Origin: Microbulbifer thermotolerans
GTDB lineage: Bacteria > Pseudomonadota > Gammaproteobacteria > Pseudomonadales > Cellvibrionaceae
Direction: 5' to 3'
Assembly: GCF_900112305.1 (NCBI RefSeq)
Contig: NZ_FOKT01000002.1
Span: 186,001 to 250,000 of the forward strand
Length of the DNA stretch: 64,000 nucleotides
The translations under genes were made by a program, and so were the position numbers. How positions within the stretch are numbered: the stretch's first letter is position 1; each line of letters starts with the position of its first letter. The notes under the pieces are model-generated. The model did not search any database. It was given only the letters and a program-made list of their open reading frames with translations, and was not told the DNA's origin. Of this stretch, positions 12,701 through 45,376 are shown one piece after another.

Positions 12701-12909
12701 ATAACTTCGCCAACCTGTTGAACGATGACTGGGGCAAGGTGTACGACATTCAGTACCCGCAACAGATTCTGTTTGACTACGACGTCAACGAAGACGGCCA
12801 GTATGTTTACTACGAGCCTTTTGGCGGTCTGAATACGAAAAACTACACCCGTTTTCAGGCTGAGGAATCCACCTGGCGAGTAAAACTGGGACTGAAATAT
12901 AACTTCTGA
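9775..12909 (+). CDS. Oar-like TonB-dependent receptor with N-terminal CarboxypepD_reg domain
   Basis: Outer-membrane active transporter, 1044 residues. A signal peptide (MKRCIFPRALLSAAVV to VAFAQ) is followed by a carboxypeptidase-regulatory-like beta-sandwich (about residues 30-115, ATIRGIVTGMDGKPV), a TonB-box-like EEVVVTAEA, a plug domain and a long beta-barrel ending in YNF with the terminal Phe needed for BAM insertion. AGGAG lies seven bases before the ATG; an in-frame extension to 9724 is not supported. The Oar type is associated with peptide, protein or polymer uptake in other bacteria; the substrate here is unknown. Divergent from a secreted nuclease. Confidence 0.9.
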   Translation: MKRCIFPRALLSAAVVSAMGTAPVAFAQETSATIRGIVTGMDGKPVDNAKITVVHTPSNSRSEILSSDSGRFNLKGLRVGGPYTIRVQSDEGEEVLDGIYLSLGKPLTLPIDLADSELDTNGVEEVVVTAEAQIFSNRGSTSVFGEDQIANAATFNRDLKDVIRSNPLAVVSPDGNELSIAGTNPKYNSLTIDSVGINDTFGLQSNGYPTNRPPISLDAVEQISLSYAPFDARKGNFTGGNINAVTKSGTNEFHGSAYLESVPWSGTAEDDKLSDGTEYDIDNEEETYGATFSGPLIQDKLFFFTSYEKWEEEIEFNYNLNTLENHDVSVEELSRVLNIMQDVYGLSDSVGSAPDPDSDEKILVKLDWNISENHRADFTYSDQETRSAQNYTDSDGTLNLSSNLWTMAQDTTYYTAHLFSDWSDVFSTEVNLSYKEYEQASLTNSSWGEINVRTDNGTIVAGADENRHANILANEVWNFGVHGTYMAEKAQYRFGAEIEDTWNYNVYGRHASGTWSFDSIDDFENRVIGDFQYSNAYTNNVDDIAYDVNGKTYSLYGDVTLEPFSGFELVAGLRYETLTVDDAPNRNSHFEETYGYANNENLDGRDIWLPRVSFNWNLRDDLTLRGGMGRFSGGMPLVWVANAYTNDGTTKDSVYLTDLDPSAVNFTSVPQVAMDTLAPGAGSTNSIDPDFELPSDWRYQLAVDYAFDIPGVGEGFNWTTELTYVDRQDSVFWRDLSRVDNGDRTVDGGRIIWDNVYAGTEYEDNYDLELTNVDDGGRSIIWSTSLDKTFENGLSLNLSYVHQDITEVNPGTSSTAESNFQYEVVENRNVPLEDTAYYEIEHRFVLNLGYRKEFVPGYATNFNLFLERRSGRPFSWTLGAYRDGDLGDQTNFDDSDVYLAYIPSGADDPAMDFENGLSYAEIMEIAKAAGVSGAAGGFVDKYSDNMPWVTTMDLAITQEVPGLLPEHRGVVYLTIDNFANLLNDDWGKVYDIQYPQQILFDYDVNEDGQYVYYEPFGGLNTKNYTRFQAEESTWRVKLGLKYNF

Positions 12910-12923
12910 TCCCCATCCCCAAA

Positions 12924-12944
12924 AGCCGGCGCTCTGCGCCGGCT
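12924..12944. terminator. Strong hairpin after the TonB-dependent receptor
   Basis: A perfect 9-bp stem (AGCCGGCGC/GCGCCGGCT) with a TCT loop lies 15 bases after the receptor stop. The downstream T-run is poor, so it may be a weak intrinsic terminator or a stabilising 3' hairpin. It sits between convergent genes. Confidence 0.5.
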
Positions 12945-13053
12945 CCCAGCTTTCCAGGGGTGGCCCGGGGCTTGCTGCATGTTGCCAACCCGACCGCCCG
13001 CGTATTCGACAAGTCATTGTGGACGCTTGCGCGGTGTCGCGGAAGCGGAGCGC

Positions 13054-15264
13054 TCAGGCGTTACCCAGCCAGCGATCCAGAGTTTCCCGCAGCAGATCCT
13101 TGCTCAATGGCTTGGTCAGAAAATCGTCCATACCCGCCGCGAGGCAACGACCCTCGAACTGCTCTTCCGTTGTACTAGTCAAAGCGATAATAGGCAGCCG
13201 ATCTTCCGGCTTGTGCTCGGCCTCCCAGTGGCGCAGACTCTCGATAATCTCGGCACTGCGCTCAGTATTCTGCTGGCAATCCACCAATAGCAGGTCGTAA
13301 TCGCTTTCCGTCAATTGCCCGAGGGCATCCTCGGTCGAGGCAGCCACATCCACGCGGTAGCCAAGTGCCTGCAGCATCTCCTCAGTCACCCCCTGGTGCT
13401 GGCGCGACTCTTCGATCAGCAACAACGAATACTGGCGCGGTTGACCGCCGCCGCTGGAAACGATACGTCGGCTGGCTTTTTTTGGCGCACCGAAGAGACG
13501 TTTAATCAGCGCATCGTGCAACTCTTTGCGCGTTACCGGCCGCCCGAGGTATAGAGCGCCAGACACGAAATGTAACAGCGATGTAAACTGCGACTTATGC
13601 CCATAGGCCCCAAGGCATATCAGTTTACACTCCTCAAGTTCGGGGTCCGCCCGCTGCAGAAATCCGCCCACAGCCTCCAGCAGTTGGGAATCTCCCATAG
13701 CCGGCGCCAATATCACCAGCTGTTTGCGTTCCAGAGCCATGCGGAACGCCTCCTCCACCTTGTCTGCGGTATCCGGTGTCCACTTGACGGTGCCGACATC
13801 CATACCGAAGGAACGCATCATCTGCGCCAAACCGGCGACAAACAGGCCTTTCTGATGTAACAGCAGCACTTCACTGTCTTGCAGGCGCCGATCCGGCGTC
13901 AGGTACACGCGCTGGTTCGGCTCCATCGCGAATTTGATCACCACTTGATAGCGATTGCCCTCGGGGGTCGAATACAATTGCAAATGACCGCCCATCGCCT
14001 CTGCCAGCCCCTTGGCGATTGACAGGCCGAGCCCCGTAATGACTTCGGTGCTATCCAAGCTAGAAAAGGTTCCGAACAGTGCCTTCTCATCCGGCAGCGT
14101 CTCGCCCTGGCCATCGTCGCTGAGACTGATGGTCAACTGCCCCTCGGCATTGCTGATCGGTGTGAAGCTGACCTGCCCCCAGAGTTCCCCTACTTGTGCC
14201 ATCACGGTGGCGGAATCCACCAGATTACGAATCAGCTGGGCAGTCTTGCGGTTGTCACCAGTAACCATCACCGGTAGGTTGTCATCGATCTGGAAGTTAA
14301 ACTCCAGGCGCTGACGGTGGGCGACGCGTGCGGCGAACTTAAAAGACTTCTCGATCGTTCTGACGAGATTAAAGGGGCCGTGGCGCAAGCGGATGTTCTT
14401 GCGTGCTACCCGCGTGTAGAGACCCACATTATCTACCAGTTTGAGCTGTTGACTGCTCGCTGTTTTGGCAAGCTTTACCCAAGCCTTCTGCCGTTCGGAG
14501 AGGGGCTCAGCCTCGAGCAGTGCCAGCGCGCCAAGGGAATCCGACAGCTGGCTGCGAAATTCCTGCCCCACATTGGCAATAAACTCATTGGTCAGGTCCG
14601 CCGCCGCCAGTGATTGCTTCCGCTCCGCCGCCAAGTGGCTAGCGCGCTGCTGTAATTCCTGCATTGCCGCAAGGCGGTCCCAGTAGTTTTCTGATCGCCG
14701 GCGCGCCTGATGGGCGGTCAACCATACAAAGGCGATGGTAAGGGCACCGTAGATAGTGCCGATAATCTCACCAGACAGACTGGCCACTAGCGCCGCGGGT
14801 ACCAGGGATAGGGAGATAAACCAAGTCAGGAAGCGGTGATAAGGCGAGAATACAGAGGTAACACTGGAGCAAAAGATTACCGAATACAGCCAGAGAAAGT
14901 GCGTTTCCGGCACAAAACCCAACAGCCATACATGGCAAAAAAGAATGCCCCCCCACCAGGCAGCCCCCAGCGTGGAGGCGATAAAATAGTGGCGGCGCCA
15001 GCGATGGGGACCGGAGGAATAAAGGTAGTTGAAACGGAAGACGTAATAACCGCGCAGGAGTGTCAGCAGCAAGAAACCGATTGCCAACACCAGCAGTAGT
15101 TTCGGCGCTTCTATACGCATATCGCCGACGGCCGCGGCGACTGCCAGGGCTGCGAGAGAAAACAGCATGCCGCGCCGGCTGTATTTGACCATACGGGTGT
15201 CGGTCACTCGGCAGACGCGGCGGTCCTTCTGAACCTTGAGTTCGGGGCGATCGAATATCGGCAT
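13054..15264 (-). CDS. Hybrid histidine kinase-like protein lacking the phospho-accepting His
   Basis: 736-residue membrane protein. About five or six hydrophobic helices occupy residues 33-185, then a coiled-coil linker (190-225), a HisKA-like helix, an HATPase domain (about 297-447), a degenerate receiver-like domain (463-590) and a C-terminal receiver (611-736). The H-box reads FIANVGQEFRSQL, so the usual His is Gln234. The N-box Asn is replaced (NLVDSA), while DDGQG and GLGLSIAKGLAEAMGG keep G-box character. The last receiver keeps Asp662 and Lys718, but its acidic pair is Glu618-Glu619. The first receiver lacks the Asp, having Ala-Pro there. It probably acts as a pseudokinase or scaffold. 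It follows the DUF2788 gene by 22 bases. Confidence 0.85.
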   Translation of the reverse strand: MPIFDRPELKVQKDRRVCRVTDTRMVKYSRRGMLFSLAALAVAAAVGDMRIEAPKLLLVLAIGFLLLTLLRGYYVFRFNYLYSSGPHRWRRHYFIASTLGAAWWGGILFCHVWLLGFVPETHFLWLYSVIFCSSVTSVFSPYHRFLTWFISLSLVPAALVASLSGEIIGTIYGALTIAFVWLTAHQARRRSENYWDRLAAMQELQQRASHLAAERKQSLAAADLTNEFIANVGQEFRSQLSDSLGALALLEAEPLSERQKAWVKLAKTASSQQLKLVDNVGLYTRVARKNIRLRHGPFNLVRTIEKSFKFAARVAHRQRLEFNFQIDDNLPVMVTGDNRKTAQLIRNLVDSATVMAQVGELWGQVSFTPISNAEGQLTISLSDDGQGETLPDEKALFGTFSSLDSTEVITGLGLSIAKGLAEAMGGHLQLYSTPEGNRYQVVIKFAMEPNQRVYLTPDRRLQDSEVLLLHQKGLFVAGLAQMMRSFGMDVGTVKWTPDTADKVEEAFRMALERKQLVILAPAMGDSQLLEAVGGFLQRADPELEECKLICLGAYGHKSQFTSLLHFVSGALYLGRPVTRKELHDALIKRLFGAPKKASRRIVSSGGGQPRQYSLLLIEESRQHQGVTEEMLQALGYRVDVAASTEDALGQLTESDYDLLLVDCQQNTERSAEIIESLRHWEAEHKPEDRLPIIALTSTTEEQFEGRCLAAGMDDFLTKPLSKDLLRETLDRWLGNA

Positions 15265-15286
15265 GGAAATCTTCTCTGCTTGGCGG

Positions 15287-15490
15287 TTAGCCTATGCCCA
15301 TAAGTTCGACCAGGACCGTCTTAATCAGAAACCCGAGCAGCCCCAGCCCCAGGGCAATAAACAGAATGAAAGTGCCGAAACGTCCCGCCTTGGACTCCTT
15401 CGCCAGGTTCCAGACGATGAAGATCATAAAAAGAATGAGTCCGCCAACTCCCACCCAGAGGGAATACAATTCGAACTGCTCAAACGACAT
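15287..15490 (-). CDS. DUF2788 small membrane protein
   Basis: 67 residues with two hydrophobic helices separated by a basic cytoplasmic loop (NLAKESKAGRFGTF), which matches my memory of the DUF2788 family of gammaproteobacteria; its function is not known. The start is taken at MSFEQFELYS; an upstream 29-residue extension in frame lacks family character. Probably co-transcribed with the kinase-like gene downstream. Confidence 0.8.
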   Translation of the reverse strand: MSFEQFELYSLWVGVGGLILFMIFIVWNLAKESKAGRFGTFILFIALGLGLLGFLIKTVLVELMGIG

Positions 15491-15586
15491 GCGGCTACCC
15501 CCCAAAAAATTGGCGCGCATTGTACAGCGGTTGGCGGCCAGTGGTAAGAGACTAAGCCCGTGGGCGCCCCTCTTCAAGTCCGCCAG

Positions 15587-15856
15587 TCAGGCGCCTTGGT
15601 AGTGGTCGCCATCATTGACTTTGGTGCCACACTTCAGGCGCCGCAGCTCGTTATCCCGGTAGCGGCTGTCGTACCAGCACCGGGGCAAGACCTCTCCCGA
15701 TAAGAAACGCAACAGCGTTTTATCGAACACCTCCGGATCTTGCATTTCCTCGCCCCAGAGATAGCGCCCGACAACGGTCAGCTCATAGGGGTTAACCAGG
15801 GTGACGACATCCGCCACCTCAACCAAATGGTTGGTGTTTATATCTTTGAACAGCAT
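15587..15856 (-). CDS. Small conserved hypothetical protein
   Basis: 89 residues from MLFKDINTNHLVEV. It is soluble, with no signal peptide and no motif I can assign. It reads as a compact beta-rich domain ending in an acidic/His tail and contains EEMQDPEVFDK and GEVLPRCWYDSRYRD. Similar short proteins exist in Pseudomonas-like genomes, as I remember them, under varied names and without proven function. Alternative in-frame starts lie at 15868 and 15907. It lies 96 bases upstream of the DUF2788 gene on the same strand. Confidence 0.65.
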   Translation of the reverse strand: MLFKDINTNHLVEVADVVTLVNPYELTVVGRYLWGEEMQDPEVFDKTLLRFLSGEVLPRCWYDSRYRDNELRRLKCGTKVNDGDHYQGA

Positions 15857-16103
15857 ATCGCCACCCATTACAGCACTCTTATCAAAGTATAGGGATTTTG
15901 GCGCCATTTACGTGGCTGGTGGCGATACATGACGATCTAGGAGCCTCCCAACCCTTTTAATATATCGAAAGATTCAGCGTCTTATCGACGATAAACATCG
16001 AAAAAACAGGAGATAGCCGTCTATATAGACAACAATCTATCGAACCAATGATTAGAGGAAACTCCGATTAAGTCGACTGACCGCTGTAGGTGGTACTGGC
16101 TGC

Positions 16104-16586
16104 TCACCCTTCCAGAGTCAGCCGTGCCGAAACCATACCCTCTTCCTGCAAGGCATCCATGTTGAGCGTACGAATAGTGAAACGCTGCTGTATCAGATTA
16201 TTCAGCCAGGGTTGTATATCCTGATAGCGCGCCTCCTCGATCCAGAGCCGAATACGGGTATCCCCCTCGGGTTCAAAGCGTTTAATGGTGATTTTGTGTT
16301 GCTTCGCCGCAGCGGTAACCCGCTGCAATAAAGTGCCCGATGCCTGACCCGCCGCTCCCGGCTCCAACTGTTCCAGTACCGGGCGCTGGGATTCAATCCA
16401 GGCTACCAATTGCCGGGATTCCTCTGCGCGCGCCAGGGCGCCATCGAAAAAGTGTTTGGCCGGTAAAAAGAGTCCGTAGATGAGCAACATACTACCGAGG
16501 AACAGGATCAATACCCCCAAGGCTCTCTGGTCGCTGGGAGGCAGAGCCAGCCACTTTTGCTGCCACTGTTCGATTTGTTCTTTCAT
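16104..16586 (-). CDS. gspM: Type II secretion protein GspM
   Basis: Inner-membrane assembly-platform component that pairs with GspL. 160 residues: a short cytoplasmic N-terminus, one membrane helix (about residues 22-42, ALGVLILFLGSMLLIYGLF), then a periplasmic ferredoxin-like domain. The ATG overlaps the stop of an 11-codon ORF (ATGA), which suggests coupled translation. Last gene of the operon; no gspN follows. Confidence 0.88.
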   Translation of the reverse strand: MKEQIEQWQQKWLALPPSDQRALGVLILFLGSMLLIYGLFLPAKHFFDGALARAEESRQLVAWIESQRPVLEQLEPGAAGQASGTLLQRVTAAAKQHKITIKRFEPEGDTRIRLWIEEARYQDIQPWLNNLIQQRFTIRTLNMDALQEEGMVSARLTLEG

Positions 16587-44510: not shown

Positions 44511-45164
44511 TTACAAGGCGGCCTCAGGATCCAGTATCTGATGCTTTACCGCCAGTAAAGTCAATTCCACGTCACTGTGGATGCCGAGCTTGTCGAAAAT
44601 CCGGTAGCGGTAACTGTTAACCGTCTTCGGACTCACCGAAAGGGTATCGGCAATTTCCGCGACTTTGCTGCCATTGACGATCATAATAGCAGTCTGCAGC
44701 TCACGCTCCGACAGCGCGTCGAACGGCGTATTTTTTTCGCTATTGCCGCTGACATTGCGCAGCGCCAATTTGGTCGCCATGGAGGTGCTGATGTAGACGT
44801 CACCCGCGTACACTGTGCGAATCGCCTTGACCATTTCTTCCAGGTCCGCGCCCTTGGTGACATACCCCTTCGCACCAGCCTGCATCAGCCGGCCGGGAAA
44901 GAGGTCGTCATCCAATGCACTGACCGCGATCACCTTGGTCTCAGGGCAACGGTTCAACAGCTTACGGGTCGCTTCCAATCCGCCCATGCCCGGCATCCTG
45001 ACATCCATCAGGATCACATCGGCCTCCGTTTGGCGAAGGAAAGCGAGTGCCTCTTCGCCACAGTTCGCTTCGCCGACGACTTGTATGCCGTTGACGTCAC
45101 CCAACATGCGCGAAATCCCCATACGCACGAGGTCGTGATCGTCCACCACTAAGACTTTGATCAA
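44511..45164 (-). CDS. gacA: GacA/UvrY-type response regulator
   Basis: LuxR-type response regulator that, with a GacS/BarA kinase, activates CsrA-sequestering small RNAs in relatives. 217 residues. Receiver domain with acidic pair in VLVVDDHDLVRMG, the phospho-acceptor Asp in VILMDVRMPGMGG and the switch Lys in GYVTKG. Helix-turn-helix LSERELQTAIMIVNGSKVAEIA with SVSPKTVNSYRYRIFDKLGI. The TTG at 45164 fits the family N-terminus (LIKVLVVDDHD); a GTG nine codons upstream is the alternative. Confidence 0.93.
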   Translation of the reverse strand: MIKVLVVDDHDLVRMGISRMLGDVNGIQVVGEANCGEEALAFLRQTEADVILMDVRMPGMGGLEATRKLLNRCPETKVIAVSALDDDLFPGRLMQAGAKGYVTKGADLEEMVKAIRTVYAGDVYISTSMATKLALRNVSGNSEKNTPFDALSERELQTAIMIVNGSKVAEIADTLSVSPKTVNSYRYRIFDKLGIHSDVELTLLAVKHQILDPEAAL

Positions 45165-45376
45165 ATTAGCCCCAACTACGGATATATGCACCGGCCACGC
45201 TGCGCGCTCTTTGCGGCCGCATGCGTTCTATTAACTGCTTTCTTGTTTTGCTCAGCGAGTCTGTTGCCCGCTATCAATTTACCTACAGTGCTGGCTGCAA
45301 CATACCAGACAAATAAGCCGCTGCAAAGCGAAGCAAGCGGTTCAAAGTCCGCCAAATTTAGACGCTGGAACAGTAT

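Follow-up and report, generated by a model that had tools for sequence, protein, structure and literature searches.

A histidine kinase fold without its phospho-accepting histidine in Microbulbifer, and a possible RetS-like role

A hybrid histidine kinase whose H-box lacks histidine raises two questions: whether the protein is still a kinase and, if it is not, what may have preserved it. Such a gene lies in a 64,000-nucleotide stretch of the Microbulbifer thermotolerans genome (contig NZ_FOKT01000002.1; hereafter the window), where the H-box of the encoded protein reads NVGQEFRSQL, with Gln234 in the place of the phospho-accepting His (Table 1). An initial annotation of the letters had proposed that this protein does not phosphorylate itself in the normal way and is instead a scaffold or phosphate sink tied to another pathway. 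Few pseudo-histidine kinases are understood, and HisKA domains without His are about 1% of the total, 0.9% (722 of 76,471) in a published survey (PMC12632262, in excerpt).

Architecture and neighbourhood of the gene

Two parts of the protein have clear Pfam matches, a receiver at residues 615-729 (Response_reg, 2.8e-16) and an ATPase domain at residues 336-444 (HATPase_c, 6.4e-12); the HisKA match at residues 226-281 (2e-4) is below the cut-off, and no sensor domain was matched in Pfam. The H-box Pro is replaced as well as the His, by Gln239. The initial annotation had described the N-box Asn as replaced, and this applies to the second of two: in NLVDSA the first Asn (347) is retained and the second (351) is Ser. 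The G1 box (DDGQG) and G2 box (TGLGL) are retained. As had also been noted from the letters, receiver 1 is missing its acceptor Asp, and receiver 2 retains Asp662 and Lys718; every residue named in the initial annotation was confirmed. Receiver 1 further has Arg575 in the place of Lys, and receiver 2 retains Thr696, with EE as its acidic pair. Hydropathy gave three segments in the membrane part at a strict threshold and seven at a lax one. The AlphaFold2 model (44 aligned sequences; mean pLDDT 82.8, pTM 0.55) comprises a helical membrane region to about residue 190, followed by the long helices of DHp, the CA domain and both receiver folds.

Table 1. Features of the hybrid kinase gene and its upstream neighbour, in window positions
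Feature	Coordinates	Strand	Evidence or remark
Hybrid pseudo-histidine kinase gene	13054..15264	minus	ATG start, 736 aa + stop; orthologue in 48/48 Microbulbifer genomes
Membrane region, residues about 15-187	14704..15222	minus	About five to seven hydrophobic helices; AlphaFold2 block pLDDT 85-95, hydropathy
DHp (HisKA-like) domain, residues 205-285, dead H-box	14410..14652	minus	HisKA 2e-4; model helices 167-251 and 257-287
Gln234 codon (CAG) replacing phospho-accepting His	14563..14565	minus	Gln in 48/48 Microbulbifer
CA (HATPase_c) domain, residues 286-446, G1 and G2 boxes kept	13927..14409	minus	HATPase_c 6.4e-12
Ser351 codon replacing second N-box Asn	14212..14214	minus	Ser 46, Ala 2 of 48 Microbulbifer
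Receiver 1, pseudo-receiver, residues 465-590	13495..13872	minus	Without Asp, Arg replacing Lys
Receiver 2, residues 612-736	13057..13431	minus	Response_reg 2.8e-16; structural match to GacS D1 receiver 7qz2
Asp662 codon, phospho-acceptor position of receiver 2	13279..13281	minus	Asp in 48/48 Microbulbifer
Lys718 codon, receiver 2	13111..13113	minus	Lys in 48/48 Microbulbifer
DUF2788 small membrane protein, 67 aa	15287..15490	minus	PF10981 9.4e-23; 22 nt upstream of kinase gene, same direction

The DUF2788 gene adjoins the kinase at every one of the 47 other Microbulbifer loci. Across the family it does so at 93 of 126 loci, of which 16 have a His-bearing kinase and 77 do not; flanks of up to about 4 kb at 13 loci of family f28 and 17 of family f43 did not contain it. 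The suggestion that DUF2788 is a special partner of the dead kinase is thus weakened, because it flanks His-bearing kinases too. Judged by gene order, the kinase has kept this neighbour, in an operon-like arrangement, across part of the family, and the pairing does not mark the dead state. No RNA element reached the Rfam gathering score at 12900-16200, and a promoter scan gave one sigma-70-like site upstream of DUF2788, which was not above shuffles (2 found, mean 1.6). A 106-aa open reading frame upstream of DUF2788 (15587-15907, minus strand) has no Pfam match.

Conservation of the altered residues and distribution of orthologues

Orthologues of the kinase were found in all 48 Microbulbifer genomes (the window genome and 47 others), each as a full-length open frame, in 127 of 144 genomes of the family (E 1e-60), and in 59 of 390 genomes of the order, picked evenly out of a larger group and with family members counted in (E 1e-50). 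The initial annotation had suggested asking of such an alignment whether Gln234 and the altered N-box are conserved while Asp662 is kept, and this is what we found in Microbulbifer: all 48 genomes have Gln234, Asp662 and Lys718, and all lack the second N-box Asn. The codon for residue 234 is CAG in 45 and CAA in 2 of the 47 other genomes, among which Glu235 is unvarying. Because Gln occurs in 48 of 48 genomes, a sequencing error or local mutation behind Gln234 is ruled out, and the initial observation is both upheld and stronger than it was put. Orthologues with an intact His, which had been named as telling against the reading, do exist outside Microbulbifer, but inside the genus Gln is fixed.

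Other parts of the catalytic machinery persist in varying degree. Gly385 (G1) and Gly411 (G2) are found in 47 of the 47 other Microbulbifer orthologues and Gly413 in 43, and the EE acidic pair of receiver 2, found in 43 of 48, may bind Mg more weakly. Residue 238, which corresponds to the phosphatase Thr of HExxT, is Ser in the window protein and, among the 47 others, Ser in 46 and Gly in one, so the H-box here is QEFRS and not the RetS-type HExxT. Only one DHp column is mostly His, column 217 (His in 44 of 48); it is not part of the H-box, and the window protein has Gln there. Within the window genome, the one HisKA match of 16 that lacks His is the window kinase (H-boxes judged by eye). With DHp and CA folds in the model and Gln234 in every Microbulbifer genome, the protein has a histidine-kinase fold without the phospho-accepting His; on these residues it is almost certainly a pseudo-histidine kinase, which as a kind is already known. 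The dead-site state is fixed in the genus, and normal autophosphorylation would not be expected, as the initial annotation had held. The acceptor residues of the last receiver are likewise fixed, in line with its further proposal that this domain could take up phosphate.

The gene is also maintained under strong selection. In 19 Microbulbifer pairs with a synonymous distance of 0.05-0.9, which are not independent of one another, the median dN/dS was 0.111 for the whole gene; by part it rose from 0.019 in DHp through 0.055 in CA, 0.074 in receiver 2 and 0.092 in the membrane part to 0.273 in receiver 1. The dead DHp is therefore the most constrained domain and receiver 1 the least, by this measure. 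GQEFR is among the longest invariant runs of the kinase in the Microbulbifer alignment, and 12 of the 126 columns of receiver 1 are invariant across the genus. At the codon level, purifying selection is shown for the membrane, DHp, CA and receiver-2 parts.

Outside Microbulbifer the picture is more varied. The kinase alignment comprised the window protein and 167 others. Two fragments, L185 (which has His and Asn) and L189 (which is without the H-box region), entered neither the tree nor the count of both residues. Residue 234 in other genomes of the family is His, Gln, Ser, Asp, Gly, Asn, Lys, Ala, Arg or Thr. Among 126 family orthologues (window excluded), 7 have His and the second N-box Asn, 14 His alone and 105 neither; among the 39 that come from the order's other families, the numbers are 29, 4 and 6, respectively. 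An active His is thus found in 21 of the 127 family genomes that have the kinase, none of them Microbulbifer, although two of these 21 calls (L155 and L157) fall in frames without a recognisable H-box. The orthologue of genus g11 has both residues. On a FastTree kinase tree in which long branches meet (119 rows, motif columns removed, including the window, 11 of the 47 other Microbulbifer and 6 of the 17 f43 rows), there are at least six changes in the presence of His inside the family, and nine over the whole tree, if L155 and L157 are scored as lacking His, and eight and eleven if they are scored as His. Microbulbifer and genus g5 form one clade (support 100) with a long stem (1.11), and the single g5 genome shares the Gln for His and the lost second N-box Asn, with no HptB match and no polar-cluster-like FlhA. 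Because relatives in other families are mostly intact kinases, the dead state is derived; on the residues, an active ancestral kinase and repeated loss are most likely.

Orthologues eroded far further were observed at L138, L139 and L141-L162 (genera g2, g3, g4, g12, g13, g16, g19, g25, g28, g29 and g31). These have no recognisable H-box and few CA motifs, yet have long open frames; the receiver-2 Lys is lost in all of them and the Asp in many. In genera g3, g16, g19 and g31 the receiver-2 Asp is also lost, in all rows.

The HptB-HsbR-HsbA relay and the flagellum

In P. aeruginosa, PA1611, ErcS' and SagS feed HptB, which phosphorylates the receiver of HsbR, and HsbR in turn governs HsbA phosphorylation at Ser56 (PMC5085249, PMC6482189, both in excerpt); in other Pseudomonas the HptB-HsbR-HsbA module also sits with fliK (PMC5085249, in excerpt). 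A Pseudomonas-like module of this kind lies within the flagellar cluster of two g21 genomes, in the order fliJ - hsbA - hsbR - hptB - fliK (names assigned by eye). HptB matches (E 1e-6) were found in 0 of 48 Microbulbifer genomes versus 87 of 96 other genomes of the family, although in G058 and G123, two of these 87, the match is confined to long frames. HsbR was matched (E 1e-50) in 34 of the 48 Microbulbifer genomes and in 83 of the other 96 in the family, a few of the latter (e.g., G058, G124 and G125) with low, paralogue-like scores only. We examined all 34 Microbulbifer HsbR loci (L212-L226, L230, L231 and L242-L258) together with nine controls, of which one belongs to family f28 and the others to non-Microbulbifer genera of the family (eight loci). 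Asp57 of the HsbR receiver is Gly in 34 of 34 Microbulbifer versus Asp in 9 of 9 controls, the second acidic residue of this receiver is gone in all 34, and HptB is within the HsbR locus in 0 of 34 versus 9 of 9. In all 34, HsbR retains the Asp residues of its PP2C domain and its kinase N-box, and HsbA retains Ser56. The three Microbulbifer loci viewed for neighbours (L212, L213 and L226) showed no flagellar genes beside HsbR.

The HptB-HsbR-HsbA relay is thus disarmed in Microbulbifer along with the kinase, which is a new observation; the initial annotation had overlooked both the missing HptB and the altered HsbR receiver. In the literature searched, which covered DUF2788, Microbulbifer with HptB, pseudo-histidine kinases and repeated loss and left subscription papers mostly uncovered, we found nothing on this case, no mention of DUF2788 by name, and no report of a joint disarming of kinase, Hpt and receiver steps in a genus with both ends kept.

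The pseudokinase and HsbR are not inseparable. Fourteen of the 48 Microbulbifer genomes, that of the window included, are without HsbR (E 1e-50) and retain the pseudokinase, and on the Microbulbifer tree these are G026 alone, the window genome joined to an 11-genome clade at support 85, and G034, which is only 80% complete; HsbR has been lost two or more times within the genus. The persistence of the pseudokinase in these 14 genomes argues that its present role needs no HsbR. In the window genome itself HsbR was not found, matches stopping by residue 214 of 570; the longest was to L240, a 406-aa receiver-PP2C protein without the HsbR kinase domain, which we rejected as HsbR on its length and domains. 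No free-standing Hpt was found there (Pfam Hpt, E 0.01), and the Hpt domains of this genome are inside frames of 698, 2086 and 1086 aa, taken as CheA, ChpA and a GacS-like kinase. Elsewhere in the window genome, L016 (G000:C22:286547-286726, minus strand; 545-aa frame) has a HisKA-like stretch and a receiver but no CA match, and ends in an Hpt-like stretch with Gln in the His place (by eye; no Pfam match); it is perhaps a second degenerate relay protein.

FlhA resembling that of the g21 cluster is matched in 9 of 48 Microbulbifer genomes (E 1e-100), with none above 63% identity, and in 86 of 96 other family genomes. In the window genome, the interval G000:C5:341996-365397 contains L240, an Hpt within a frame about the size of CheA, and a 699-aa frame for a divergent FlhA. 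A His-bearing kinase is found in 0 of 53 family genomes without free-standing HptB, 48 of these being Microbulbifer, versus 21 of 74 with HptB, an association with only two to three independent contrasts behind it, too few for a significant result. In the remaining 53 of the 74 genomes with both kinase and HptB the His has been lost, so decay is not tied to the loss of HptB alone. In family f43 the kinases are intact, HsbR is found in 0 of 17 genomes, and a free-standing Hpt frame of 113-126 aa is found in at least 16 of 17; intact kinases without HsbR suggest that the output of the ancestor was possibly other than HsbR. An Hpt partner for the ancestral kinase would fit these distributions, whereas HsbR as its sole output would not.

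Resemblance to known systems and a possible present role

Several characterised proteins resemble the window kinase in part. Its best NCBIfam profile is BarA (1.4e-43) and it shares with BarA/GacS a kinase core followed by two receiver-like regions, but it has no HAMP or Hpt match (Pfam), lacks the His, and scores 149.2 bits against a cut-off of 890 for NF008318. The core aligned with GacS (7z8n; phmmer 1.2e-27; VIA-align Z 18.4, 280 aligned, rmsd 5.0), RetS (6dk7; Z 18.8, 216 aligned, rmsd 3.4) and the RetS-GacS complex (7n0e; Z 18.0), and receiver 2 with the GacS D1 receiver (7qz2; Z 19.0, 126 residues, rmsd 2.1), with which many other receivers tie; the solved-structure matches listed for the model are all in the kinase and receiver parts. 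The sensor of RetS is of the 7TMR-DISM type, and the window protein, unlike RetS, has no match to it (Pfam, E up to 1). DivL of Caulobacter has Tyr for His and PAS sensor domains and is not known to have receivers; it differs from the window kinase, which has Gln and not Tyr in the His place. DivL is nevertheless alike in fold (4q20) and in being a pseudo-histidine kinase kept for binding (PMC4211667, in excerpt). The best whole-model match is ShkA, also of Caulobacter (Z 22.0, 380 aligned, rmsd 10.4), with a kinase core, pseudo-receiver 1 and receiver 2; however, ShkA is an active kinase whose pseudo-receiver binds c-di-GMP (PMC7010744, in excerpt), whereas receiver 1 is the least conserved domain of the window protein. 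PA1611, ErcS' and SagS, likened here by their descriptions, are hybrid kinases that feed a separate Hpt, and PA1611 is described as a structural relative of GacS that interacts with RetS independently of its phosphorelay residues (PMC4866733, PMC5085249, both in excerpt); they are, however, described as active HptB donors, whereas the Microbulbifer kinase is without His and its genus without an HptB match.

The closest functional parallel is RetS of P. aeruginosa, a membrane hybrid kinase with two receivers that is unable to autophosphorylate; its receiver 2 takes phosphate from GacS, its HExxT motif confers a phosphatase activity, and its core inhibits GacS (PMC5992135, in excerpt). The phosphate sink of the initial annotation has a published precedent in this receiver 2. 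The window protein is like RetS in its GacS-like core fold (VIA-align of the model) and in retaining the acceptor Asp of receiver 2 in 48 of 48 genomes. RetS, however, has the His and Thr of HExxT and is without G-boxes (PMC5992135, in excerpt), and the window protein is the reverse. The residues of the window protein would allow RetS-like phosphate uptake by receiver 2, and its core might be fit for RetS-like inhibition of GacS; the phosphatase mechanism (mechanism 2 of RetS) is possibly missing because Ser238 takes the place of the HExxT Thr.

The protein probably acts now through binding, or by taking up phosphate from another kinase. We thus propose, tentatively and at slightly under even odds for the account as a whole, that the window protein is a former HptB-type hybrid kinase that is now a RetS-like regulator, plausibly of a GacS/BarA-like kinase. 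An ancestral kinase that donated phosphate to an HptB-type Hpt is somewhat more likely than not; that the present protein acts on GacS as RetS does is possible, though we lean somewhat against it. We infer HptB ancestry from co-loss and the GacS target from resemblance. The ancestor would have relayed phosphate from His to Asp, HptB and HsbR, like PA1611, ErcS' and SagS, and this relay would have been dismantled on loss of the polar flagellum. The conserved DHp/CA core would now pair with an active kinase and alter its activity, and receiver 2 would take phosphate from that kinase. Its likeliest partner may be the GacS/BarA-like kinase of the genome, which would tie a membrane signal to GacA. 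Such a kinase (L001, part of the 1086-aa frame) lies outside the window, with a BarA profile match at E 1.5e-162 and 543 bits against a cut-off of 890. A GacA-like response regulator was identified by motif search at 44514-45227 of the window (minus strand). The link to GacA, which the initial annotation had offered as mere speculation, is less idle in light of both genes and stays conjectural.

Alternatively, receiver 2 could be a sink or scaffold for some other kinase, or be charged by small phosphodonors, with no involvement of GacS. Asp662, Thr696 and Lys718 are kept. As the genome has no free-standing Hpt (E 0.01), phosphate from a protein would have to come from a kinase His or from one of the Hpt domains in the 698-, 2086- and 1086-aa frames; this reading nevertheless leaves the DHp being the most constrained domain unexplained, and we consider it unlikely. 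One could also envision a relay that works free of phosphate, the pseudokinase and the HsbR pseudo-receiver talking by binding and so carrying a signal from the membrane to the HsbR-HsbA switch. Both ends are kept with fixed replacements (Gln234 in 48 of 48, HsbR Gly57 in 34 of 34), the catalytic residues of HsbR-HsbA are intact, and DivL is a pseudokinase able to bind a receiver without chemistry (PMC4211667, in excerpt). However, the same pseudokinase is retained in the 14 of 48 genomes, including that of the window, that are without HsbR (E 1e-50), and we regard this relay as distinctly improbable. The broader claim it would imply, of a whole phosphorelay stripped of phosphate transfer in one genus, its two ends selected and communicating by binding alone, has an equally small chance.

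Slow decay of a functionless relic on its way to loss would accord with a relaxed receiver 1 and with the extent of erosion in other genera, of which g3, g16, g19 and g31 are without the receiver-2 Asp, but the full-length open frame in 48 of 48 Microbulbifer genomes and median dN/dS values of 0.11 (whole gene) and 0.02 (DHp) make it very unlikely. Nor does it seem at all probable that the protein is still a kinase, autophosphorylating on another residue. Nucleotide may still bind, given Gly385 and Gly411 in 47 of 47 others and Gly413 in 43; however, the mostly-His column 217 falls beyond the H-box and is occupied by Gln in the window protein, and none of the 48 genomes retains the second N-box Asn.

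Taken across the order, these proteins form a graded series, from intact kinases in other families, through His- and Gln-bearing forms in related genera, to a pseudokinase fixed in Microbulbifer, and the series comes with matching changes in the Hpt and the receiver. It makes testable at what point a kinase ceases to be one, what stays after that, and whether the HsbR-HsbA partner switch can run without receiver input.
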